From Haloferax mucosum ATCC BAA-1512 (lineage in GTDB: Archaea; Halobacteriota; Halobacteria; Halobacteriales; Haloferacaceae): a stretch of DNA of 64,000 nt. Of the stretch, positions 51,314-63,277 are shown piece after piece. The DNA is taken from NCBI RefSeq assembly GCF_000337815.1, contig NZ_AOLN01000001.1:62001-126000 (forward strand), given 5' to 3'. The notes under the pieces are model-generated. The model was not told the origin of the DNA and searched no databases. It saw only the letters and a program-made list of their open reading frames with translations. The translations under genes and the position numbers were made by a program. Each line of letters opens with the position of its first letter. The stretch's first letter is position 1.

Positions 51314-51669
51314 AGAGGCGAGTATGAGTCAAAGAGCGACTTGAGTCCACCCCACAGGCTGACAGACGACAAGTTCGAGTCGAAGTTCGTCCAGTCAATG
51401 ACTGACCACGAACTCGGAAGCGAACTTCGAGCCGTCCAAAACGACCGCGTCAGCGACGTGGGCGCATCGTATCAGGGACCGGTTGTGTGACTGTCACAAC
51501 ACGAACTGGACGCAGAGGGCCTCTCGCCCGACGTTCTCACCGAAGACGAGCGACTCGACCGCCAGCGAGTCGCCAATATCGTCACGGGCGAGTGCCAACT
51601 GCACACCGCTTTCGCTCCCGCTGAACTATTCGTGGCCGGTAGACTTTTAACTTTTAGGCTGGCCTAAAT
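51314..51669 (+). pseudogene. Coding remnant with in-frame stop
   Basis: The frame is closed by TAA at 51311. From 51314 it carries clean haloarchaeal coding character: FVQSMTDHELGSELRAVQND, RVSDVGASYQGPVV, an in-frame TGA at 51488-51490, then LSQHELDAEGLSPDVLTEDE and ANIVTGECQLHTAFAPAELF. The same frame continues on both sides of the TGA, so a single gene appears to have been broken. No start codon is present at the 5' side. I do not recognise the family. It lies directly before the first metal-box promoter. Confidence 0.5.
51652..51669. promoter_or_regulatory. Metal-repressor operator 1 (rraA-like gene)
   Basis: TTTTAGGCTGGCCTAAAT, palindromic in 17 of 18 positions, starting 44 nt before the ATG at 51696. 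Same motif at 52590, 56252, 56511 and 60366. Form matches DtxR/IdeR-type operators. Confidence 0.8.
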
Positions 51670-51695
51670 TAATATCGAGTTATGAGGATGAGACG

Positions 51696-52367
51696 ATGGT
51701 AATCGGCGACTGCGACCGCCCGAGCGACGACCAGCTGAGCGCCCTCGAACGCGTTGACCCGAACGAACTCGGCCACCACCGGCACTTCGGACACTCGTCG
51801 CCGGAACTGCAGTTTATGCGAACCGCGAGTTCGGCGAGCATCGTCGGCTCTGTGCTGACGGTTCGAATTCCGCCGGTCGATGGAACGATGGTCCACAAGG
51901 CGACCGAACTCGCCGAACCGGGCGACGTTATCGTCATCCAGATGGACGGCCACGAGACGAACGCGCCGTGGGGGGAAATCACCACACACGCGGCCGTTGC
52001 GAGCGGCGTACGCGGCGTCGTCATCGACGGTTCGGTGACAGACACGGGCGCAATCAGAGATATCGACTTTCCCGTCTTCGCCCGAGCGAGGTCCAACAGA
52101 ACGGTCTACCGCCTGCGGCAGAGTTTGGGCGGCGATATCAACGTTCCCGTGCAGATCGGCGGCGCGGTGGTTCGACCGGGTGATGTCGCAATCGGCAACG
52201 AAGACGGTGTCGTCTTCGTCCCTCGTGACGAACTCGACCACGTTATCGAACACTACACGGGGGACGACGGAACGGAAGCCGAAATCATCGACCGCCTCTA
52301 CGAGGGCGAGTCGCTGGCCGACATCTCGGGGGCGAACGACCGAATCGAAGAACGCGACCTGTCGTAA
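51696..52367 (+). CDS. RraA-fold protein (HMG/CHA aldolase-like)
   Basis: 223 residues of the RraA/4-hydroxy-4-methyl-2-oxoglutarate aldolase family, class II metal-dependent retro-aldolases or oxaloacetate decarboxylases. Family strands: GSVLTVRIPPVDGTMVHKAT, GDVIVIQMDGHETNAPWGEI, VRGVVIDGSVTDTGAIRD and VVRPGDVAIGNEDGVVFVP. In known aldolases the loop is DGxxRD; here residues 111-116 read DGSVTD, so the catalytic Arg is Thr115 while the metal-side Asp116 is kept. The activity may therefore be changed. First gene of the metal-box locus; box 1 lies at its promoter. ATG 51696 is the only good start. Confidence 0.82.
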   Translation: MVIGDCDRPSDDQLSALERVDPNELGHHRHFGHSSPELQFMRTASSASIVGSVLTVRIPPVDGTMVHKATELAEPGDVIVIQMDGHETNAPWGEITTHAAVASGVRGVVIDGSVTDTGAIRDIDFPVFARARSNRTVYRLRQSLGGDINVPVQIGGAVVRPGDVAIGNEDGVVFVPRDELDHVIEHYTGDDGTEAEIIDRLYEGESLADISGANDRIEERDLS

Positions 52368-52589
52368 GACGCGTTCGTCTGCGCTCTGCTGGCCTCCAGA
52401 CTAAAAATGGGTCTAACAGCCCCGATAACTACGACGCGTCGGCCACGATGTGGTCTCTCGGTGTCTCGAATGCCGCGGCGACCGCGGTGAACTGACGTAT
52501 CCCGTCGGGAATCACCGACGAACACGCCGGTAGAAACGTCTCTGTATGCTTATTTTCAGAATAAAAATTCTTTATCAAAAAGGTTTAAG

Positions 52590-52607
52590 TTTTAGGTCGG
52601 CCTAAAT
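52590..52607. promoter_or_regulatory. Metal-repressor operator 2 (deacetylase-MATE unit)
   Basis: TTTTAGGTCGGCCTAAAT, ending 7 nt before ATG 52614 and beginning at the likely TATA (GGTTTAAG, about 52582-52589). A repressor bound here would cover the start region. Confidence 0.78.
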
Positions 52608-52613
52608 TTGTTG

Positions 52614-53447
52614 ATGTCACAGTTCAAACAGCAGTCGTCTGACGCGACTCCGTGGGGAGACTACCAGTCTGCGGCTTCGTTCACTTTTGACCTCGACGCC
52701 GGTCAGCTTTGGCGCGCGGGCGAGAAACAAAAAGAAGGATTCGGACGATTCGAATTCCGCGGCGAGTACGGGCCGACGGTCGCAGTCCCCCGGATTCTGG
52801 AGGTGTTCGACAAACACGATTGCCACTGTACCTTCTTTGTCCCCGGTCGAGTCGCCGAGGAGTGGCCGGAGACGATAACACAGATACACGACCACGGCCA
52901 CGAAATCGCACACCACACCTACTCGCACGTCCATCCGCGGACGCTCTCACGAGAACAAGAGCAGACGGAGTTTCTGCGGACTGTCGAACTCTTCGAAGAC
53001 CTCACCGGCGAACCGCCACTCGGCTATCGCGGCGGGCAAACCGACCAAACGCTGGAACTGGCAGAAGAGGTGGGGATGATATACGATTCGTCGATGATGG
53101 ACACTGACATTCCGTATCTACGCGACGACCATCCACTCGTCGAACTGCCCAACCACTTCCTGCTGGACGATTTCGTCTACTGGGGATTCAACATGAAGCC
53201 CACTTTCGACTTCCAGTCGGGAATCTCGCCTGTCGGTCCCGTCTTCGACACGTGGGAAGCAGAGTTCGAGGGCCTGCACCGTCGCGGTCGAATGTTCATG
53301 CTGACGATGCACCCGCAGGTCATCGGTCGAGCCAGTCGCATCGACGCGCTCGACGACCTGCTCGAAACGGTCACCAACACCGATGGTGCGTGGGTCGCAA
53401 CCTGTGCCGAACTCGCCCGTCACTGGAAGGAACACGGGGCAAACTAA
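52614..53447 (+). CDS. NodB-fold deacetylase / amidohydrolase (PuuE-HpPgdA-like)
   Basis: 277-residue polysaccharide-deacetylase-family hydrolase. Motif 1 reads SFTFDLDAG (D26, D28), motif 2 HHTYSHVHP (HTYSH at 101-105), with CTFFVPGRVAEEW between them and LGYRGGQTDQT as motif 3. The FDLDAG form and the missing signal peptide place it near the cytoplasmic PuuE/HpPgdA-type group that act on small amides and imides rather than on chitin. A role trimming or opening an amide in a small molecule is an inference from context. It starts under metal box 2 and is followed by MATE 16 bp later, so both form one unit. Confidence 0.82.
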   Translation: MSQFKQQSSDATPWGDYQSAASFTFDLDAGQLWRAGEKQKEGFGRFEFRGEYGPTVAVPRILEVFDKHDCHCTFFVPGRVAEEWPETITQIHDHGHEIAHHTYSHVHPRTLSREQEQTEFLRTVELFEDLTGEPPLGYRGGQTDQTLELAEEVGMIYDSSMMDTDIPYLRDDHPLVELPNHFLLDDFVYWGFNMKPTFDFQSGISPVGPVFDTWEAEFEGLHRRGRMFMLTMHPQVIGRASRIDALDDLLETVTNTDGAWVATCAELARHWKEHGAN

Positions 53448-53463
53448 CGGGAGCGACTCAGGA

Positions 53464-54894
53464 ATGGGAATCCGTACTGCGCTCGTGCGTCTTTTCACCC
53501 GGCAGGACGACCTCGATTTGACTTCGGGGTCGATTGCCCGGCCACTCGGGATACTCGCACTGCCGGTTATCATTACGAACGTCATCCAAACGGTCTACAC
53601 GCTCGTCGATACGTTTTGGCTCGGCCAGTACAGCACCGCGTCGCTGGCGGCGATTACACTCGCGTATCCGCTCGCGTACCTTCTCCTCTCTGTGAGTTTT
53701 GGACTCCCCGTCGCGGGCAGTATCCACGTCGCTCAAGCGACCGGCGGCGAAGCCCACGAACGGGCCGCCCACGCGGCGGCACAAACTGTCACGTACGGAC
53801 TGCTTTCGGGGACTGTCGTCGGCGTGCTCGGCTTCTTCTTCGTCGATGACGTGCTCGCACTGTACGACATTACGTCCGACGTCCACCGCTTTGCAACCTC
53901 GTATCTACAGATAATGTCGCTCGGTCTCCCCTCGACCGTCGGGTTCGTCGCGTTCCTCTCTTTGATGCGCGGGTCCGGAGACACCATCACACCACTTCCG
54001 GTTATGCTCGGGTCGATTACACTCAACGCGCTTCTCGACCCGATTCTCATCTACGGCTGGCGATTCGTCCCCGAACTCGGTATTCGCGGTGCCGCGATTG
54101 CAACGTTCACGGCCCGAACCCTCGCGGCGCTCGTCGGATTCTATCTTTTGTTCGCCTCCTCGCGGGGTCTCGACGTCGAGGCGCGCCACTTCTGGCCGGA
54201 CTTCTCTTGGGGTCGCAAACTCGCCCGAACCGGTCTCCCAACGTCTGTCGAGCAGATGGGCCGAGGCATCTCGATTAACTTGCTTCTCGTCATCGTCGGC
54301 ACCTTCTCGACAGCGGCCGTCGCCGGATACGGTATCGGCATCCGCGTCATCTCGACGATCGGCTTCGCTACGGTCGGCATTTCGAGGGGTGTCGAAACGA
54401 TGACTGGCCAGAATATCGGAGCGGGGAAACTCGACCGCGCCGTGACGACTAACTACCGCGCCGCGGCGATTGCGTTCGGGAGCCTCACGGCCATCGCCGT
54501 CCTCACGTGGCTCACCGCGCGGCCGATTGTGAGTCTCTTCACGGACGAACCGGCGACTATCAGATTCGGCGTCTCGTTTCTCCACTGGGTCGTCCCGACG
54601 TTCGGCTTTATCGGCGTGTTACGGACGTTCGTCGGCGGTTTCCGCGGTATCGGAATGACCACTGTTGCGGCCGCTATCGTGTTGACGACACGGGCAGTCA
54701 TCCGACTCCCGCTTTCGTGGTTCGGCGCACAAGCCGTCGGTCCGAGTGGGGTCTGGATTTCTATCGCCGTCTCGAACGTCGTTGGGGCGGTGCTCGCAGT
54801 CGCGTGGTTCAGGCTGGGGTCGTGGCGGGACAACGCCCTTGCCACGCTCGGTGACGCAACCCGAGAATCGACGGACGCAGTGGGGAGTGACTAG
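53464..54894 (+). CDS. MATE-family efflux transporter
   Basis: 476 residues, 12 TM helices in two six-helix repeats, cation-coupled export of small organic molecules. Family features: [20 protein letters not shown] and [20 protein letters not shown] at the start, then the second-half counterpart [20 protein letters not shown], and [20 protein letters not shown]. Start ATG 53464 follows the deacetylase by 16 bp. Its stop overlaps the convergent GS-like gene by 4 bp. In a metal-regulated locus with biosynthetic genes it is the natural exporter for the product. Confidence 0.92.
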
Positions 54895-56231
54895 TAGAGA
54901 TTCCGTAGCCGTTCGCGTTGCCACGATCCGGCGCTTTCGGTGAACAACTTCCAGTGGTTTCGTTTGACCTCCACGTACGCGTCGAAGAGGTCCGGACCGA
55001 GCGCCGAACGCAGTACCTCGTTTTGCTCCAGCGCGTCGAGCGCCTCGCCGAGCGTCTGCGGGAGTCGTTCGATTCCCTTCGCGGTTCGCTGAGCGTCCGT
55101 GAGGTCACACGGGTCAACCGAAACCGGCTCCGGCGGTTCGAGTTCGCGTTCGATACCGTCGTTTCCGGCGGCAAGAAGCCCGATAAGGCCGAGATACGGA
55201 TTCACCGTGTTGTCGCCTCCGCGGAATTCGATTCTGGTCGAATCGGCTTCCCGTCCCTGTGCCGGTGCAGGGACTCGAATTAGCGCCTCCCGGTTGAGCC
55301 AGCCCCAACAGATGTAGCCCGCCGCGCCGTGACGCGGCTGTAAGCGACTGTACGAGTTTACCGTCGGTGCCGTGAGCGCGAGGACGGACGGCGCGTGGTC
55401 GAGCACGCCCGCGATGAACTGCCGCGCGGTTTCGCTTATATCGTCGTGGCTCGGGTCGAAAAACTGGTTTTCTCCGTTCCACAGCGAGACGTTGATGTGA
55501 CAGCCGTTTGTCCCGTCGTCGAACGGTTTCGGGAGAAACGTCGCTTGATAGCCGTCTCGTTCGGCCACGCTCTTGACCGTTTCACGGAGCAGTAGGTGTT
55601 CGTCGGCCGCTTCGAGTCCAGTGTGGTGTCCGGTGACGATTTCGTGTTTTCCGGGTGAGAACTCGGGATGATATTTCTTCACGTCGATTCCCTGCGCTTT
55701 GAGCGCGTCTACGATGTGCAGGATTGTGTCGTGCGTCCCGCGAATCGACTCAGTTCGGTACGCGCCCGCCTCGTCGCCGCGGGTGATTTCACCGTCTTCG
55801 TCCCGGCTAAAGAGACTGAACTCACTTTCGAATGCGACGTGCGGGGCGAGTCCTTTCGCCCGCAGGTCGTCTTCGACCGACTGGAGCGACGAGCGACTGT
55901 CAACAGCCCACGGTTCGCCGTCGAGGGTTCGAATCGTACAGAGCATCGCGCCGGCCCGTTCCGCGTAGGGAAGAGGCCGAAACGTCTCGGGGTCCGGATA
56001 GAGGTGTACTTCGCCGACGGCGTCGAATCGGCTGTCCCTGTTTCGGCACGCGAACGCGTCGTAGACCTGGATGACCTCCGAGAGCGTGACTCCGTTTTCG
56101 ATTGCCGCATCGACTTCCGACACGTCGACGGTGGTGGCCTGCATCACTCCGCTCGGGGTGACATAAAGGAGTCTGACGAGGTCGATATTCTGCTTCTCAC
56201 AGCGGGCTTTGACAGTCGGTGTGTCGCTCAT
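54891..56231 (-). CDS. Glutamine-synthetase-like ligase A
   Basis: 446-residue GS-fold amide ligase. Nucleotide/metal residues are complete: FESEFSLF (E135, E137), [11 protein letters not shown] (E190, E197), [10 protein letters not shown] (H245), NREALIRVP (R319), [16 protein letters not shown] (E335, R337). The N-terminal beta-grasp lacks the FDGSS loop whose Asp and Ser shape the ammonium site; it reads [20 protein letters not shown]. It therefore resembles PuuA/GlnA3-type gamma-glutamyl-amine ligases more than true GS. The start ATG 56231 is 20 bp from metal box 3. It is divergent from the binding-protein gene and a paralogue of ligase B. Confidence 0.88.
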
Positions 56232-56251
56232 TAGTTCTTCGTCACGTGTGT

Positions 56252-56269
56252 TTTTAGGCCAACCTAAAA
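56252..56269. promoter_or_regulatory. Metal-repressor operator 3 (GS-like ligase A)
   Basis: TTTTAGGCCAACCTAAAA, palindromic in 16 of 18 positions, 20 nt above the ligase A start on the minus strand. Confidence 0.78.
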
Positions 56270-56474
56270 AACATGACTCCCTCACAACTACTTTCGGTAG
56301 ACTTCCGGAGCCGACGTCTCGTCCCCAAATTCCGACCTGTCGTAGGCCGTGGTCGGTAACATGAGCCACCAAATTGGCCATGTGCTAGTCACAGATACTA
56401 TCAGTTCGCGTGTTTTATCCTACGTTAGACCTGTATTTTAATCGATAATTATACGGTCGCCCGGGCTGAAATTG

Positions 56475-56492
56475 ATTTTGGCTGTCCTAAAC
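56475..56492. promoter_or_regulatory. Degenerate second operator upstream of the binding-protein gene
   Basis: ATTTTGGCTGTCCTAAAC matches the consensus in 14 of 18 positions and lies 36 bp from the perfect box at 56511. It precedes the TATA-like CCATATAATG (56501-56510). Confidence 0.45.
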
Positions 56493-56500
56493 TTCGAAAG

Positions 56501-56510
56501 CCATATAATG
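56501..56510 (+). promoter_or_regulatory. TATA-like box of the binding-protein operon
   Basis: CCATATAATG about 25 nt before ATG 56531, directly abutting the perfect metal box at 56511-56528. Confidence 0.6.
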
Positions 56511-56528
56511 TTTTAGGCTGGCCTAAAA
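56511..56528. promoter_or_regulatory. Metal-repressor operator 4 (binding protein - ligase B operon)
   Basis: TTTTAGGCTGGCCTAAAA, a perfect 18-bp palindrome lying between the TATA box and the ATG at 56531, so bound repressor would block initiation. Confidence 0.85.
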
Positions 56529-56530
56529 AT

Positions 56531-57796
56531 ATGGCACGAGATTCCAGCGGTCGCGGCTCACCGACGCGCAGAGATTACATGAAGTACGGTAGTGCACTCC
56601 TCGGTGGTGGCCTCCTCGCCGGCTGTACCGGCGATGCCGCATCTGATTCGACGACGACGGTTTCCGAATCGACGTCGCAGACCGAAACGGCGACGGCGAC
56701 GGCGACGGAGTCCGAAGACGACAGTAGTTCGTACACGGTCTCGATGGCCCCGATGGGCGACGTCGAGTTCGACGAAGTCCCCGAGACGGTGTTTACGATT
56801 CTCGGCCAGCACGCTGGCATGGCGCTCGCGCTCGGATACGGCGACGCGATAAACGCCATGCACGGACCCTCGTACCACCAATCGCTGTGGAACAACTTTA
56901 TCCACCATCTCGACGGCGTCACCGTCGATTGGGAGGGTATCTACTCCTCGTGGCCACCGACGAAGGAGAAACTCTACGAACTCGACAGCGACATCCACCT
57001 CGCCGACCCCGCGAAGGTCGATTCGGCGGAAGGCTGGGACATGAGCGACATCGAAGAAATCGAGCAAAACGTGGCTCCGTGGTTCGGAAACACGTTCAGT
57101 GACACCCACCAGAAGCCTCCCGCGGAGTGGGTCGATTCGTACGAGTACTACACGCTCTGGGAAATCTTCGGAAAGGTCGCGCAGGTGTTCCAAGAAGAAG
57201 AACGCTACGAGGCGCTTTCGAGCATTCACGACTCGTTAGTCTCGAATATCGAATCGAACCTCCCACCAGAGAGCAAGCGCCCGACCGCGGCGATGGTGCT
57301 GTTTTCGAGCTCCGACGACGACAACATGTGGGGCTACAAGATGAACCACCCGGGCTACTACTCCGCGCACACCCGGCCGATGAAGACGACAGACGCGCTG
57401 GCGTCCGCAATCGGAGAGGGCTACGGCGAGGACGGCGGCAACATCAAACTCGACTACGAGATTCTGCTGGAAGCCGACCCGGACGTGCTTCTCGTGTTGG
57501 GTCCGATGACGGACTACTTCAACATCGACGACATCCGTGCGGACTTAGAGAACCACGAGGTCGCAAAAGAGCTGACCGCAGTCAAGGAAGACCGCGTGTT
57601 CACGCAGGGGGCGCGCAGACACGGTCCGCTTCTCAACCTCTTCCAGCTCGAGATGACTGCCAAGCAACTCTACCCCGAGCAGTTCGGCGAGTGGCCCGGA
57701 TACGTCAACGGCGAGCCGTACCCGGACATCCCGGCTGACGAACAGCTCTTTGACCGCGACCGCGTCGCGGAAATCGTCACCGATGGCGTAAACTGA
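56531..57796 (+). CDS. Iron-siderophore-type ABC substrate-binding lipoprotein
   Basis: 421 residues. Tat signal TRRDYMKYGSALLGGG and lipobox LLAGC with acyl Cys 32, then a Ser/Thr/Glu linker and a FepB/BtuF-like fold: VPETVFTILGQHAGMALALG, LLEADPDVLLVLGPMTDYF, VAKELTAVKEDRVFTQGARR. The protein captures a metal complex outside the membrane for an ABC importer; no permease or ATPase is in the window, so those must lie elsewhere. It has the strongest metal box and starts a two-gene operon with ligase B, which begins 2 bp after its stop. Confidence 0.88.
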   Translation: MARDSSGRGSPTRRDYMKYGSALLGGGLLAGCTGDAASDSTTTVSESTSQTETATATATESEDDSSSYTVSMAPMGDVEFDEVPETVFTILGQHAGMALALGYGDAINAMHGPSYHQSLWNNFIHHLDGVTVDWEGIYSSWPPTKEKLYELDSDIHLADPAKVDSAEGWDMSDIEEIEQNVAPWFGNTFSDTHQKPPAEWVDSYEYYTLWEIFGKVAQVFQEEERYEALSSIHDSLVSNIESNLPPESKRPTAAMVLFSSSDDDNMWGYKMNHPGYYSAHTRPMKTTDALASAIGEGYGEDGGNIKLDYEILLEADPDVLLVLGPMTDYFNIDDIRADLENHEVAKELTAVKEDRVFTQGARRHGPLLNLFQLEMTAKQLYPEQFGEWPGYVNGEPYPDIPADEQLFDRDRVAEIVTDGVN

Positions 57797-57798
57797 GC

Positions 57799-59148
57799 AT
57801 GGAACCCCAATCAATCCGTGCGCAGTGTGAGGATGCCGGTGTCGAACTCGTCAGACTGCTGTACGTCGGCAATGACGGGCACATTCATGGTCATTCGGTA
57901 AAGCGGGCGCACCTCGAAGATGCGCTCGAATCCGGCATCCAACTGCCCACGTTGATCCAGTCGTTCAACGCGCTCGGCATGCGCGTGAAAGACGCCGACT
58001 TCGACGCAGTCGGCGAGGTTCGACTGGTTCCAGATCGTTCGACGTTTCGCGTGCTCGACCACGAAGACAGCGTCGCGGCCGTCTGTTGTTCGCTGTACGA
58101 AACCGACGACCAGACGCCGTGGGCGGCCGACCCTCGGTCTGCACTCTCCGGATTCATCTCGACGCTCGCGGACGAGGGCGTCGTTCCCTCGACCGCTCTG
58201 GAAAGCGAGTTTCATTTCTACACCCCGGGCGACGAGGGTGGCGCGGACGACGAACCGCACGGCACCCGCGGTCTCTACGCGACGGCCAGTATGCGCGAGT
58301 TCAACGAAATCGTCTTAGAGACCATCGATGCACTCGAATCCCAACAGATCACGGTCACGAAGCACTGTCCGGAGTACGCCGCTGGCCAACACGAACTCGT
58401 CACGAAACACCGCGAGGGACTCACTGCCGTCGATGACTACGTGTTCCTCCGGGAGACCGTCGCCGCCATCGCCGAGTCCCACGGCTTCGAGACGACGTTT
58501 CTCCCGTTCCCGTTCGAGACAGCGACGAACGGCTGTCACATCAACCTCTCGCTGTGGAACGACAGCAACCTGTTCGCCCCGACTGACGCGGACAGGGCGT
58601 TGAGTCCGATGGGACGTCACTTCGTCGGCGGTGTCCTCGACCACCTCCCGGCGTTGCTCGCGCTCACGTCGCCGACCGTGAACTCGTATGCACGACTCCA
58701 ACCGCAGTCGGGTGCGGCGGCGTTCTGCTGTTGGGGAATTGGAAACCGCGAAGCGGCTATCCGCGTTCCAGAACTCCCGGCGGACAAACGCGAGAGTGCG
58801 ACGCGAATCGAGTTCCGCCCCGCGGACAACACGGCGAATCCGTATCTGTCGCTACTCGGTCTCTTGGCCGCGGGATGGGACGGCGTGCAGAACGAAACCG
58901 ACCCGGGACTGCCGCTCGACGAAGACCCCGGTAACTGTCGTGATGAACTGTTAGACCAACGCGGCATCGAGCGACTCCCGACCACACTCGGCGAGGCGCT
59001 CGACGCGTTGGAACAAAACGACGTGCTTCGCTCGGCGCTCGGCGAGCAGTTGTTCGATTCGTATCTGACGGTCAAACGGAGCGAGTGGGACGTGTTCACC
59101 GACAGTGCTGGCACGTGGCAACAAGACATCTTCCGTGAGGCGTTCTAA
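57799..59148 (+). CDS. Glutamine-synthetase-like ligase B
   Basis: 449 residues, clear paralogue of ligase A: shared VRLLYV start and FDAVGEV strand, then ESEFHFYTP, PEYAAGQHELVT, NGCHINLSLW, NREAAIRVP and TRIEFRPADNTANPYL. All GS metal and ATP residues are kept and the FDGSS ammonium loop is again missing (SFNALGMRVKDADFDAVGEV). The two enzymes probably make two different gamma-amide bonds, or act on two substrates, since they share one regulator but sit in separate units. Two bp after the binding-protein gene, so cotranscribed with it. Confidence 0.88.
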   Translation: MEPQSIRAQCEDAGVELVRLLYVGNDGHIHGHSVKRAHLEDALESGIQLPTLIQSFNALGMRVKDADFDAVGEVRLVPDRSTFRVLDHEDSVAAVCCSLYETDDQTPWAADPRSALSGFISTLADEGVVPSTALESEFHFYTPGDEGGADDEPHGTRGLYATASMREFNEIVLETIDALESQQITVTKHCPEYAAGQHELVTKHREGLTAVDDYVFLRETVAAIAESHGFETTFLPFPFETATNGCHINLSLWNDSNLFAPTDADRALSPMGRHFVGGVLDHLPALLALTSPTVNSYARLQPQSGAAAFCCWGIGNREAAIRVPELPADKRESATRIEFRPADNTANPYLSLLGLLAAGWDGVQNETDPGLPLDEDPGNCRDELLDQRGIERLPTTLGEALDALEQNDVLRSALGEQLFDSYLTVKRSEWDVFTDSAGTWQQDIFREAF

Positions 59149-59291
59149 GAGAGGGTAACCTCCGAAATTCCGGCCCCGCACTTTTCTGATGCGCCCGACC
59201 TATACTGCCCCGACGGACACTCGTCTCTCACTGAATCTTAATTATTTACTGTGTAGTTTTATGTCCTCTCGTGACAAACCCCACGGGTGCA

Positions 59292-59837
59292 ATGAGCTCC
59301 CAAGAGACCGTTCGTCGAAAAGCGAATACAGTCGGTGAGAACCCTCTCCGACTCGAAGCGGAGAAGGCCAAACAAGTAATCGAGGCGCTCAACACGGACC
59401 TCGCGGACGCCTACGTCTTGTACCACCAACTCCACAAACACCACTGGAACGTCGAAGGTGCCGAACACCTCGAAATTCATCGCTTCCTCCAGGAGGCGTA
59501 CGAAGAAGTCGAAGAAGCCGCAGACGAGATCGCCGAGCGCGTGCAGGCACTCGGCGGTGTTCCGCACGCTAGCATGTCCGCGCTTTCGGACGCCGCAACG
59601 GTTGAAGCTGAAGACGAAGACGTCTACGACATCCGGACGTCACTCTCGAACGACCTCGAAATGTACGGTGACATCATCGAGAGCTACCGGGAACACATCG
59701 GGCTCGCCGAGGGTCTCGGCGACTACGCGACCAGCGAAATGCTCCGGGAGCAACTCGAAGACGTCGAAGAGCACACACACATTATCGACCACTACCTCGA
59801 AGACGACACGCTCGTCGAAGAATCCGCAACGCACTGA
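59292..59837 (+). CDS. dpsA: DpsA ferritin-like iron-storage protein
   Basis: 181-residue Dps: a dodecameric cage that oxidises and stores Fe(II). Ferroxidase and core helices are seen in ADAYVLYHQLHKHHWNVEGA (the HKHHWN helix with the intersubunit iron ligands) and FLQEAYEEVEEAADEIAERV, with further Glu/His in MLREQLEDVEEHTHIIDHYL. ATG 59292 is chosen over 59271. The promoter region (59236-59270) has a TATA-like TTATTTAC run and no copy of the palindrome, so it may be controlled differently. Its place inside the metal-box locus supports an iron theme. Confidence 0.92.
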   Translation: MSSQETVRRKANTVGENPLRLEAEKAKQVIEALNTDLADAYVLYHQLHKHHWNVEGAEHLEIHRFLQEAYEEVEEAADEIAERVQALGGVPHASMSALSDAATVEAEDEDVYDIRTSLSNDLEMYGDIIESYREHIGLAEGLGDYATSEMLREQLEDVEEHTHIIDHYLEDDTLVEESATH

Positions 59838-59877
59838 AACTGCGTTCTCGTGTCTCCCACCTACTTACTCTCGTCTT

Positions 59878-60195
59878 CTACTCCACTTTGGGCGGCTCTT
59901 GTTCGGTTCGTCCCGGGAGTTCTAGTTCGATTTCGAGCTCCGGGTCACCGACGCCGTCGAAGTCGATTTCGAGTTCGACGGGTTCGCCGAACGCGAACGG
60001 GAGTTCCCACTCGTCGGTCGTGATTGTCAGTTCGTCGCCGTCGCGGAGTTGCTCACCGAGCGTAATCAGGAACTCTCCGGCGCCGCTGGCGTCGAGACGG
60101 TACTCCTCTTCGAATTTCCGCCCGTTTCGAATAATCGTCCGCTCTGTTTCTTCGTCGGACAGCGTCTCTGATTCTGGTGTCGTAGGGTCGCTCAT
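59878..60195 (-). CDS. Amphi-Trp-domain protein
   Basis: 105 residues, acidic. N-terminal polar stretch, then EEEYRLDASGAGEFLITLGE and the amphi-Trp core DELTITTDEWELPFAFGEPV followed by the strand ELEIDFDGVGDPELEIELEL. This small domain is found in many archaea and bacteria with no known enzymatic role. It starts with an ATGA overlap after the 55-residue gene, under metal box 5, so it responds with the locus. Confidence 0.75.
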   Translation of the reverse strand: MSDPTTPESETLSDEETERTIIRNGRKFEEEYRLDASGAGEFLITLGEQLRDGDELTITTDEWELPFAFGEPVELEIDFDGVGDPELEIELELPGRTEQEPPKVE

Positions 60196-60359
60196 CGAAT
60201 CACGTCGGTAGTCGTGTCACTCGAAATCCACCCTTCGGTGTTCCCCGCTTCGAGGAACACTGATTTGCCGGGCGAGCTTTCACAGACCGATATTTCGGGT
60301 GTATCCGTCGAATCTTCGTCTGACCTTGTCTCCGAGTGTGGCTGGGTACTGGCGGCCAT
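60192..60359 (-). CDS. Small metal-box-controlled protein (55 aa)
   Basis: Begins MAASTQPHSETRSDEDSTDT, with a single Cys (SVCESSPGKS), and ends VFLEAGNTEGWISSDTTTDV-like before Ile-Arg. No known domain. The ATG lies 7 bp from the perfect metal box 5 and its TGA overlaps the ATG of the amphi-Trp gene, so the pair is one translationally coupled unit. Missed by length filters, but operator placement and coupling make it a convincing gene. Confidence 0.8.
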   Translation of the reverse strand: MAASTQPHSETRSDEDSTDTPEISVCESSPGKSVFLEAGNTEGWISSDTTTDVIR

Positions 60360-60365
60360 TGCCTG

Positions 60366-60383
60366 TTTTAGGCTGGCCTAAAA
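60366..60383. promoter_or_regulatory. Metal-repressor operator 5 (small protein - amphi-Trp unit)
   Basis: TTTTAGGCTGGCCTAAAA, perfect and identical to operator 4, 7 bp above the start at 60359 on the minus strand. Confidence 0.85.
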
Positions 60384-60590: not shown

Positions 60591-61640
60591 TTACGTGAGT
60601 GAATAAATGTTCGATTCGTACGTTTCGCGGACTCTATCCCCCCAATTGTGGGTGTACGTGTCGATGATGTCGCCTGCGACGTCGCCCCGGAGGTATTTGA
60701 CGATACCTCGGTCTCCGGTCCGGTCGCGGAGGTGCGTCGTGAAGAAGTGCCGGAAGTAGTGGGGCGTGACGTTCTCTTCTCGGTCGCCGCCCGTTCGGTA
60801 CCATCCAACGTCGGCAGCGTGCGAGGTGACGACGTGGTGGACCGCATCAGTCTCCAAGCGGTCTCCCCATCCCGATGCAGTACCGACGAAAAGGGGCTTT
60901 GCGGGAGCGGTAGTATCTGGTCGAATCGCAAGCCACCGCAGGAGCACAGCCTCTAATTCGTCGTCAACCGGAATCACCGTCGAGCGTTTTCGCTTGTTCG
61001 ACGCGGTTCGCCGCTCGCCGTTTTCGACGCGTCCGGCGCTCGGGTCGGCGGAGACGTATATCGACGGTCCGCGACCGTCGAGAGCGGCGCGGGTCGATAC
61101 ATCTGCGAGCGGTGTCTCCGCTTCGAGCGAGAGGTCTCGGAGGTCGAGGTTGCACAGTTCGCCGACACGCATCCCCGTCTTGAGGAGCGTCACCACCAGT
61201 GCGTGCTCCAGCGGGTGGTGAATCTGGCGGACGAACGCCCGCATCTGCGGAACTGAAAGCTCTCGTCGGGCCGGGTTGGTGTCGATTCGTTCGTCCATCT
61301 CCTCCATGACGAGACCCATCGGATTGGAGTCGAACGCGCCGACTTGGGCCATGTAGGCGTAGAACCGGTGGAGGTAGGAGGCGTACGTTGCGACCGTGCT
61401 CGGTGCGACCGAACGGTTTCTGAGCGTGTGTATCCACGCCATGCAGTCGCGGTGCGTCGCTTCGTCAACCGACCGCGCCGTCCCGGCCGGGTTGCGGGAG
61501 GGGTCGCCGAGAAACGACTCGAACTCTCGAAGGACACGCTCGTAGGCGTCGCGGGTCCGGTCGGACTTCCCGTGGTAGGTCATATCTTGGAGAAAATAGC
61601 CCACCGGGTCGGTGACCTCGGCCGGTCGCTCAGCGGCCAT
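60591..61640 (-). CDS. XerC/D-like tyrosine recombinase
   Basis: 349 residues. N-terminal SAM-like core-binding domain (about 10-105: GKSDRTRDAYERVLREFESF; YASYLHRFYAYMAQVGAF), catalytic domain about 125-340 with LLKTGMRVGELCNLDLRDLS (Arg), VTPHYFRHFFTTHLRDRTGD (HxxRH with His and Arg), KYLRGDVAGDIIDTYTHNWG (the LxG/H position and nucleophile Tyr). It has no tRNA or att repeats beside it, so a chromosomal resolvase or domesticated recombinase is likely. Start 61640 overlaps the preceding gene by 11 bp. Confidence 0.88.
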   Translation of the reverse strand: MAAERPAEVTDPVGYFLQDMTYHGKSDRTRDAYERVLREFESFLGDPSRNPAGTARSVDEATHRDCMAWIHTLRNRSVAPSTVATYASYLHRFYAYMAQVGAFDSNPMGLVMEEMDERIDTNPARRELSVPQMRAFVRQIHHPLEHALVVTLLKTGMRVGELCNLDLRDLSLEAETPLADVSTRAALDGRGPSIYVSADPSAGRVENGERRTASNKRKRSTVIPVDDELEAVLLRWLAIRPDTTAPAKPLFVGTASGWGDRLETDAVHHVVTSHAADVGWYRTGGDREENVTPHYFRHFFTTHLRDRTGDRGIVKYLRGDVAGDIIDTYTHNWGDRVRETYESNIYSLT

Positions 61641-62076
61641 CGTCCCCCGCGAGCGTGTAGCCACCATGGCGGCCACTGTACACGACTCGACCGTCGGATT
61701 GGAGTTCCTGGAGCGTCGATTCGAGGCGGTCTTCGATGTCGTCGGTCAGCGCCGAAACGAGGTCGTCCCACGAGTGGTGTGAGTCGGTTTCCAACACCTC
61801 GACGATGCGGCCTTCGAGACGACTATTATTTTCGCCCACAATTGGTTGATTAGAATTCTCTGTCTGGAGACCTGCTTTCACCCTCTCTACCCCGGGGGAA
61901 ATGCCCGCCTCATTCCCCTTCGTCGGGACCTCGAAATCGCTTCGTCCTGCCTGTACCATCGTCCTGACAAATTCACTCTGGCTCATGCCGAGCCGGTCGG
62001 CGTGTTCCTTCCAAATGGCCTTCTGGTGTGCCGGCAGATAGGTTTGAACCGTCGCCCGGTCGTCCTCGTCGCTCAT
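61630..62076 (-). CDS. Ribbon-helix-helix protein with C-terminal wHTH (DUF5805-like)
   Basis: 148 residues. The N-terminal half reads VQTYLPAHQKAIWKEHADRL then GMSQSEFVRTMVQAGR, a ribbon-helix-helix pattern. The C-terminal half is winged-helix-like (RLEGRIVEVLETDSHHSWDD; RLESTLQELQSDGRVVYSGR). Overlaps the recombinase start by 11 bp, so the pair is coupled; it may be its regulator or accessory DNA-bending partner. The DUF5805 label is from memory of haloarchaeal neighbours of this recombinase. Confidence 0.75.
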   Translation of the reverse strand: MSDEDDRATVQTYLPAHQKAIWKEHADRLGMSQSEFVRTMVQAGRSDFEVPTKGNEAGISPGVERVKAGLQTENSNQPIVGENNSRLEGRIVEVLETDSHHSWDDLVSALTDDIEDRLESTLQELQSDGRVVYSGRHGGYTLAGDDGR

Positions 62077-63277
62077 GGTCGGTGTGACTCGGGGGGAGAT
62101 ATTCAATCTACTGGCACAGTCCAGAATAAGTGAAGTTATCTGAATCAGTGCAGGCGTATTTTCGGTGCGAAATGGTACTTATCCTAATTAGTGCAACCCT
62201 AATTTCGCCAATCTACTAGCAGAAATTAGGATATGTATTTGGCCGCTGAAATCGTCGGTTTCGGGTGTTTTGAGCGTATCTATGGAGTGAACAGAATCCT
62301 GTCTTAGCGAAAACGACAGAAATCGTTCGGACACTTCACAACTTTGGAACCGCCCTCAATATCTGGATGGCTGTCTTAGTCGTCTTTACTCCCGGAGTGT
62401 TCGGTCGAAGATACCCATCCAGCGGATTCATTTTTACAACAAACTCTGCTCTGAAATATTATATTTATCCTCTGGTGGCCGTCTCAGTGCATAATTTATT
62501 TCTCACTTTTGGTGATGAATTAATGCCATAAAATATTCATACCAATGTGGATTGTATTTTTCTCCACCGAGTACGGTGTTTTGAGTCGTCTCCTGTGTAT
62601 TTAGACACGAATAACCCATCCAGAAAAATAGCTGTTTATACAAATATTTTGCTAGTAAATTAATATCTATTTACCAATCGACTATAGTCTCGATGTTGGA
62701 CTCGTTTCTCCCGCCTCACACGGCGATTCACTATCGTTCGTCGTTCGGACTGCGTACAAGTCCGCATCGTATCGTTTGTGCTACAGCGACGGTCTCTTCC
62801 TGAGAAGCCCCGTACTCAGAGAACAGTCTCAAGCGGTTCTTCGCTCGACAGTCGTTGTCACCTCGATTACACTGAGAACCGCTCAGCAACCGCGTGTGGC
62901 GTTTCTCTCAGGGCGTGGTTTTCTCCTCTCCGAACGTCTCCTGTCCATACTACGGTGGCTAAGAGCGACGCAAACACACCGAGTTCAAGACTCTTCGACT
63001 GCCCGACCATGTCGTACCGGGCCGTTACCCTCGGCGTCTCTCGGTTTGCTGTCGCATTGGCTGGCGGCCTATCACTCCCTCTCAAGTGTGGGTACTTGGT
63101 CAGTCGCGTCGAGACGCCGCCGCACACGCCGAAGCCAATCAGAACGATTGTATCCACGATTCTGCCGTCGTTCTCGTGAACACGTTTGTACGCCGGATAC
63201 GAGACGTCTCAGCGCAGACTCGTATATTCTATCTCGCTATACCCAAATCGGGTCGGCGTTCGTGCAGTTCGATGCGG
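62077..63277. other. Gene-free stretch, AT-rich in its first 700 bp
   Basis: Nothing convincing is coded here. The first part (to about 62700) is strongly AT-rich, with many T-runs. Around 62182-62230 there are direct and inverted copies of CCTAATT: CCTAATTTC (62198-62206) pairs with GAAATTAGG (62222-62230). The second part (62760-63180) has ordinary GC with open frames on both strands (62867-63157 minus; 63003-63179 plus) whose codon character is poor; one may be a small membrane protein gene. No origin-recognition box was recognised. Confidence 0.5.
62198..62230. repeat. Inverted repeat upstream of the RHH-recombinase pair
   Basis: Nine-base arms CCTAATTTC and GAAATTAGG, 15-nt spacer, with another CCTAATT at 62182-62188. 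Possible operator for the RHH protein or a recombination site. Confidence 0.5.

Follow-up and report, generated by a model that had tools for sequence, protein, structure and literature searches.

What do two glutamine-synthetase-like ligases (GS_A and GS_B), an RraA-fold protein, a NodB-type amidohydrolase, a MATE exporter and a binding lipoprotein, gathered under copies of one palindrome in the Haloferax mucosum genome, do together? A sequence-only reading of the window, that is, the whole 64,000-nt stretch of DNA analysed, had proposed a metal-regulated metallophore pathway that works without IucA/IucC synthetases. A siderophore role for the locus is strongly supported. The six genes (51654-59148) are probably an iron-repressed section, located apart from the rest, of an IucA/IucC (NIS) pathway for a citrate/diaminopropane siderophore, to which GS_A and GS_B would supply gamma-glutamyl-diamine building blocks. 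Of the earlier interpretation, the iron control, the ligases, the exporter and the recapture step stand, whereas the independence from IucA/IucC and the aldolase step do not. Its gene families (RraA-like, NodB, MatE, two Gln-synt_C, Peripla_BP_2, DpsA and amphi-Trp) were all confirmed with Pfam and NCBIfam profiles.

Table 1. Genes and palindromes of the locus, in window coordinates.
Feature	Coordinates	Strand	Match or remark
Palindrome 1 (candidate iron-regulator box)	51654..51667	.	exact TTAGGNNNNCCTAA; 28 bp upstream of RraA
RraA-fold protein (223 aa) with a broken aldolase motif	51696..52367	+	PF03737 4e-35
Palindrome 2	52592..52605	.	exact; 8 bp upstream of NodB
NodB/CE4-type amidohydrolase	52614..53447	+	PF01522 (Polysacc_deac_1) 1e-21
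MATE exporter	53464..54894	+	PF01554 4e-53
GS_A, predicted glutamate-diamine ligase; corresponds to GlnA-2 (HFX_1688) of Hfx mediterranei	54891..56231	-	NF045547 703 bits
Palindrome 3	56254..56267	.	exact; upstream of GS_A
Near-palindrome	56477..56490	.	one mismatch; palindrome 4 lies 36 bp away
Palindrome 4	56513..56526	.	exact; upstream of binding lipoprotein
Ferric-siderophore-binding lipoprotein (predicted), HFX_1687 position	56531..57796	+	PF01497 (Peripla_BP_2)
GS_B, second GS-like ligase, GlnA-3/HFX_1686 position	57799..59148	+	NF045547 688 bits; own clade with iuc-linked relatives
dpsA	59271..59837	+	NF041388; neighbour in same regulon
Amphi-Trp protein, part of dpsA block	59878..60195	-	TIGR04354
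55-aa ORF between palindrome 5 and amphi-Trp	60192..60359	-	weak DUF7331 match
Palindrome 5	60368..60381	.	exact; serves small ORF/amphi-Trp block

The five palindrome copies described earlier proved to be exact matches to TTAGGNNNNCCTAA, accompanied by one near copy. None of 100 shuffled sequences reached six sites, and the whole genome contains 27 sites, compared with one for a reversed-pattern control. A start codon lies 4-30 bp downstream of every exact copy in the window, and the genes fronted in this way encode the RraA-fold protein, NodB, GS_A, the binding lipoprotein and a 55-aa ORF. The genome's other copies mostly precede siderophore-binding lipoproteins, an iron transporter, the iucA/iucC operon and an Idr-like gene for a DtxR-type regulator. 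The locus has the shared operator before iron-uptake genes expected of the DtxR-type iron regulon of haloarchaea, and the proposed iron control is supported. Judging from its target genes and from a paper citing that work, the palindrome appears to be the haloarchaeal 'ferR' signal of Leyn and Rodionov (2015). Across haloarchaea, 82 palindromes were counted at 18 siderophore-linked GS loci versus none at 18 loci of non-linked homologues, and all 14 GS_A genes tested have one 14-58 bp upstream.

The same palindromes had been read as tying the amphi-Trp gene into the pathway, with dpsA in their midst. Both genes belong to the regulon, but in the window none of the palindromes is dpsA's own, and dpsA is absent from related siderophore operons, occurring in a conserved block of its own; we therefore rejected the pair as pathway parts and regard them as a separate conserved iron block. 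The 55-aa ORF matches PF24018 with an E value of 0.0019, below the gathering score.

Orthologues of the RraA-fold protein are present in six siderophore operons at 75-80% and in a seventh at 53%; in a contig scan, Haloarcula salina was the only organism named with RraA in a siderophore setting. The suggested aldolase step, making or remodelling a hydroxy-carboxylate, is not supported, because the D-X20-R-D catalytic motif of HMG/CHA-type pyruvate aldolases is broken: in the alignment, Arg is replaced by Thr in 11 of 11 homologues, and Asp by Glu, or by Ala in two. We rejected the pyruvate aldolase assignment on this basis, and the structure model, of moderate confidence (pLDDT 65), confirmed the RraA fold only. 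NodB retains the D-H-H metal triad of NodB/CE4 enzymes, and its DxD and HxxxH motifs are invariant across nine relatives, as is an Arg. The MATE gene follows that of NodB, downstream of iucC, in genomes G188, G111, G059 and G113. The binding lipoprotein has the class III fold and lipobox of PF01497 binding proteins, and its AF2 model (pLDDT 78) best matches HtsA, PiaA, FeuA and YfiY-schizokinen in the PDB.

A binding lipoprotein together with an amidohydrolase, in a genome where many binding proteins are under the palindrome, could also suggest that foreign citrate siderophores are imported and remodelled, or that siderophores are recycled after iron release, as the sequence-only reading had partly allowed. 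We consider this most improbable, since ATP-dependent ligases and an exporter would be unexpected for uptake and relatives carry these genes in one stretch with those for synthesis. The original idea of a chelator produced, and later taken up again, by a set of amide ligases, exporter and binding protein is supported.

The window contains no IucA/IucC gene, as had been stated, but the genome contains two, both on contig C10 under palindromes. They belong to an operon with the order dat-ddc-iucA-iucB-iucD-iucC and two palindromes, which provides the NIS synthetases, the amine-supply genes dat and ddc and the hydroxamate-arm genes iucB and iucD. A co-occurrence search, proposed with the first reading, placed the six genes together inside an iuc operon in two genomes of another family (G207 and G143). 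There, the order is palindrome-dat-ddc-iucA-iucB-iucD-SBP-GS_B-GS_A, followed by MATE-NodB-RraA and iucC, all twelve genes being contiguous. Genes in these relatives were called by codon-usage score, as longest-ORF calls are misleading in high-GC DNA. Of the 242 haloarchaeal genomes sampled, 18 contain genes of this GS clade. Every one of them has IucA/IucC, compared with 64 of the 242 overall (Fisher p=5.4e-12), and IucA/IucC adjoins the GS gene in 16 of the 18. The GS genes are optional in the siderophore pathway, because 46 of the 64 IucA/C-positive genomes do without them. No fuller named copy of the cluster was found in plasmid records near the window.

These results overturn the claim of a self-contained metallophore pathway independent of IucA/IucC. 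Physical separation of the six genes from the iuc operon in H. mucosum speaks for it, yet all sampled genomes with the GS clade have IucA/IucC, nearly always adjacent, and we judge it very unlikely.

GS_A and GS_B both exceed the curated cut-off (650 bits) of NF045547, the gamma-glutamylputrescine synthetase family. As the earlier reading held, they lack the ammonium site: its Asp and the flap Glu are lost, while the metal, Arg, glutamate and phosphate residues are retained. Siderophore-linked GS proteins form a single clade (support 98/99). GS_A is not an uncharacterised protein: it corresponds to GlnA-2 of H. mediterranei, whose activity as a glutamate-putrescine ligase has been tested with recombinant enzyme (PMC8394153); 18 of the 19 published residue positions agree, and the remaining one is off by one.

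The role assigned to GlnA-2 is polyamine catabolism (PMC8394153). On that reading, or on its detoxification variant, also offered as an alternative from the sequence, the enzyme would gamma-glutamylate putrescine or clear surplus 1,3-diaminopropane from the siderophore pathway. The family name agrees with it, the recombinant protein joins glutamate to putrescine, and the poorer growth of the glnA-2 deletion strain on putrescine fits catabolism (PMC8394153). Also counting against the siderophore reading, a plasmid-borne reporter of the glnA-2 promoter showed no change across all nitrogen sources, including complex medium, with iron not varied. However, puuB/C/D-like genes were not seen beside the ligases in any mapped locus, the ligases lie under iron boxes within NIS operons of several families, and the non-linked homologues, in eight genomes, have neither box nor IucA/C. 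Most iuc genomes, moreover, manage without these ligases. Under denitrification, expression of glnA2 (log2FC -4.05), the binding protein gene (-4.25) and glnA3 (-5.37) fell, as did that of the iuc operon (-6.0 to -7.1), alongside a raised SirR-type regulator, a joint response left unexplained in that study (PMC11218638). We consider the catabolic reading unlikely; both GS-like enzymes more likely help to build an iron scavenger than break down putrescine.

In the detached NIS pathway that we favour, iron starvation would lead Dat and Ddc, encoded on contig C10 with the rest of the palindrome-controlled pathway core (iucA, iucB, iucD and iucC), to make 1,3-diaminopropane, which is putrescine's C3 homologue. 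This diamine or a derivative would be gamma-glutamylated by GS_A and GS_B, the IucA/IucC synthetases would couple the products to citrate, and the chelator would leave through the MATE protein, its ferric complex being recaptured by the lipoprotein. An amide is the probable target of NodB, for editing or hydrolysis, and the RraA-fold enzyme may perform a further step dependent on GS_A.

Gamma-glutamate might instead be a temporary protecting group, masking one amine of diaminopropane during hydroxylation and acetylation of the other before removal by NodB or, in Hfx larsenii, a GatA-like amidase. GS_B is confined to genomes having IucD, and several GS_B loci include an amide hydrolase (NodB or amidase), as this would predict. 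It appears improbable, given that GS_A occurs in seven genomes lacking the hydroxylase and acetyltransferase (PF13434 and PF13523; iucD and iucB) as well as a neighbouring hydrolase, and that four iuc operons have NodB but no GS-like ligase.

Under the NIS reading, gamma-glutamyl arms would take the place of hydroxamate arms in operons without these two enzymes; one example product would be citrate-bis(diaminopropane-gamma-Glu), C22H38N6O11, [M+H]+ 563.267. More tentatively, haloarchaea may make citrate siderophores with gamma-glutamyl-diaminopropane (or gamma-glutamyl-diaminobutyrate) arms installed by GS-fold ligases, the arms fully replacing hydroxamates where the hydroxylase and acetyltransferase have been lost. 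Among open-licence papers, none was found joining GS-like ligases to NIS siderophores; if true, both the ligand class and this use of the GS fold would be absent from the literature searched. The prediction is a new archaeal siderophore group, including lineages with synthetases but no hydroxamate enzymes, in which GS-fold enzymes working alongside IucA/IucC synthetases form amide bonds. It offers a physiological role for GS-like proteins annotated as polyamine-catabolic and an explanation for the published repression of glnA2/glnA3 together with iron uptake. The idea is directly testable in H. mediterranei, because glnA-2 has already been deleted and its protein purified there.

The closest described system is the schizokinen-type NIS operon of Haloferax volcanii (HVO_B0041-B0046; PMC7407949), which has the same dat-ddc-iucA-iucB-iucD-iucC set as C10, where a palindrome precedes the genes. 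That six-gene pathway lacks the GS-like ligase, NodB and RraA genes, which are added in H. mucosum and its relatives, whereas the seven genomes without iucB and iucD keep GS_A. The published H. mediterranei order, MATE - glnA-2 - ABC protein - glnA-3, is that of the window (PMC8394153), although genomic context and the published RNA-seq point to siderophore synthesis rather than the putrescine catabolism ascribed to GlnA-2. The RraA-fold protein shares its fold and ~30% identity with the HMG/CHA aldolase 3noj, whose catalytic Arg is Thr, and whose motif Asp is Glu or Ala, in all aligned family members. PuuA and Streptomyces GlnA2/GlnA3, which are gamma-glutamylpolyamine synthetases, have in common with the window's ligases the GS fold, the lost ammonium site and, as predicted for the window's proteins, the joining of glutamate to a diamine. 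Those enzymes, however, feed polyamine degradation, while the window's ligases belong to a haloarchaeal clade of their own that is linked to IucA/IucC operons.

Searches against Pfam and NCBIfam bore out the gene families that the sequence-only reading had assigned to the locus, and both glutamine-synthetase-like ligases, GS_A and GS_B, scored above the curated cut-off for gamma-glutamylputrescine synthetase. No solved structure is related in sequence to the binding lipoprotein, whose AlphaFold model (pLDDT 78) matches HtsA, PiaA, FeuA and YfiY-schizokinen, all of them iron or siderophore binding proteins. The repeated palindrome, TTAGGNNNNCCTAA, also held up: the region contains five exact copies and one near copy, every exact copy has a start codon 4-30 bp downstream, and the genome (3.37 Mb in 20 contigs, 97.8% complete) contains 27 exact copies versus one for a reversed-pattern control. 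The remaining palindromes adjoin mainly siderophore-type binding lipoproteins; others lie next to the iuc operon, an Idr/DtxR-type regulator gene and the gene of an iron-type ABC binding protein. This palindrome-bearing gene set is an iron regulon. The palindrome is probably the same element as the 'ferR' signal, which is reported to precede all fhu genes in H. volcanii (PMC11349517).

Palindromes frequently occur as tandem pairs with fixed spacing, as in the window (56477/56513) and at loci L026, L031, L032, L118, L119, L125, L126 and L142. Among 25 distinct pairs less than 200 bp apart, the spacing is exactly 36 bp in nine and 34 bp in two, which suggests that two regulator dimers bind as a pair.

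The absence of IucA/IucC genes, as previously claimed, is correct for the window but not for the genome, since contig C10 carries the operon dat, ddc, iucA, iucB, iucD, iucC, preceded by two palindromes. In G207 and G143, genomes from another family, counterparts of all six window genes, 63-80% identical, form an uninterrupted stretch with the iuc operon, and in the genomes G188, G111, G059 and G113 the last IucA/C-type gene is immediately followed by NodB and MATE. This makes the window locus very probably a detached portion of a single NRPS-independent (NIS) siderophore pathway.

GS homologues (E<=1e-100) were present in 26 out of 242 haloarchaeal genomes, and those of 18 genomes group into a single clade (support 98/99) that divides into GS_A and GS_B sub-clades. 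IucA/IucC was found in 18 out of 18 GS-clade genomes versus 64 out of 242 overall (Fisher p=5.4e-12, a value inflated by kinship, although the 18 genomes span five families), while the eight genomes with GS homologues outside the clade gave no IucA/IucC match. A GS gene adjoins IucA/IucC in 16 of the 18. GS-clade loci contain 82 palindromes in 357 kb, compared with none in 338 kb around non-linked homologues of GS, RraA and NodB (18 loci), and a palindrome lies 14-58 bp upstream of GS_A in all 14 genes tested. The locus is a real, conserved, iron-regulated siderophore module.

The hydroxylase (PF13434) and the IucB-type acetyltransferase (PF13523) are absent genome-wide from seven of the 18 GS-clade genomes, all near-complete assemblies (G171, G168, G184, G105, G083, G114 and G082). 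All seven retain dat, GS_A and IucA/IucC genes; therefore, GS_A is not an accessory of hydroxamate synthesis. A third, longer IucA/IucC-family gene (open frame of about 700 codons) adjoins the operon, being present in four of these seven genomes and in G086.

The RraA protein also occurs in four of the seven, and siderophore-linked RraA was found only together with GS_A. Its proposed aldolase-like role is not supported, given the altered D-X20-R-D motif: Thr replaces the catalytic Arg in all 11 aligned homologues, and the Asp is replaced by Glu or Ala. RraA homologues at L132, L133 and L134 (~56% identity) share the altered motif; they neighbour carbon-nitrogen-hydrolase-like and ABC-ATPase-like genes, lack the palindrome and form a non-siderophore branch, which could reveal the enzyme's chemistry. 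NodB has an intact metal triad.

Neither dpsA nor amphi-Trp is present in the joined loci of G207 and G143. In Hfx larsenii-like genomes they form a block with the palindrome on a contig separate from the siderophore genes; in other Haloferax, a palindrome separates dpsA from a neighbouring DtxR-type gene. Regarding the integrase flanking the locus, integrase-like HVO_1422 is 12-fold up in iron-starved H. volcanii (PMC11349517).

In certain GS_B loci (L142, G112, G210 and, partially, G182 and G202), genes for a GatA-like amidase, a MOSC protein, a second IucB-type acetyltransferase and an HpcH/HpaI aldolase/citrate-lyase protein occur together with palindromes; these loci are possibly a second GS-dependent siderophore branch. 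G112, from the same genus as the source genome, is 99.3% identical to a Haloferax larsenii plasmid across 18 kb, which places the source genome in Haloferax.

Locations of features in the window and in compared genomes and loci
Feature	Location	Strand
Longer IucA/IucC-family gene	G168:C4:116683; G105:C1:1142898; G184:C10:348758; G171:C1:1676412; G086:C4:147933	
XerC/D-type integrase and DUF5805 protein, flanking locus	window 60594-62106	-
GS_B locus	L142:7547-13152 (Haloferax larsenii plasmid); also G112, G210; partly G182, G202	
dpsA/amphi-Trp/palindrome block	window 59271-60381; compared loci L167-L174	

Aligned to Bacillus subtilis GS, both ligases retain the Glu/His metal ligands, the Arg residues for phosphate and glutamate, and the catalytic Glu; the Asp of the ammonium site and the Glu of the flap are gone, in agreement with the earlier description of ligases without an ammonium site. 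The co-regulation sites, linkage, active sites and activity with putrescine are established here or in the literature; we infer that in the cell the ligases act on 1,3-diaminopropane or one of its derivatives, supplied by Dat/Ddc, and that the IucA/IucC synthetases would take up gamma-glutamyl-diamine blocks. In hydroxylase-free lineages, the predicted product, assuming glutamate retention, would be citrate with two flanking gamma-glutamyl-diaminopropane arms (C22H38N6O11). For GS_B, a live alternative is that gamma-glutamate acts as a protecting group, as GS_B co-occurs with IucD and often also with an amide hydrolase. The module is NIS siderophore biosynthesis in a new variant that uses GS-fold ligases, with putative chemistry.

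GS_A agrees with published H. mediterranei GlnA-2 at 18 out of 19 residue/position pairs, with the remaining pair displaced by one position. When produced recombinantly, GlnA-2 joins glutamate to putrescine and shows no GS activity, the ligase activity is gone in the glnA-2 deletion strain, and its authors proposed a role in putrescine catabolism (PMC8394153). In a separate denitrification RNA-seq study, expression of GlnA2 (log2 fold change -4.05), GlnA3 (-5.37) and the protein encoded between them (-4.25) drops together with that of the iuc operon (-6.0 to -7.1), and a SirR-type regulator goes up; the glnA2/glnA3 decrease was termed unclear by the authors (PMC11218638). We attribute this joint fall to the palindromes common to both. 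The published order of the H. mediterranei locus, MATE - glnA-2 - ABC protein - glnA-3, is the same as in the window.
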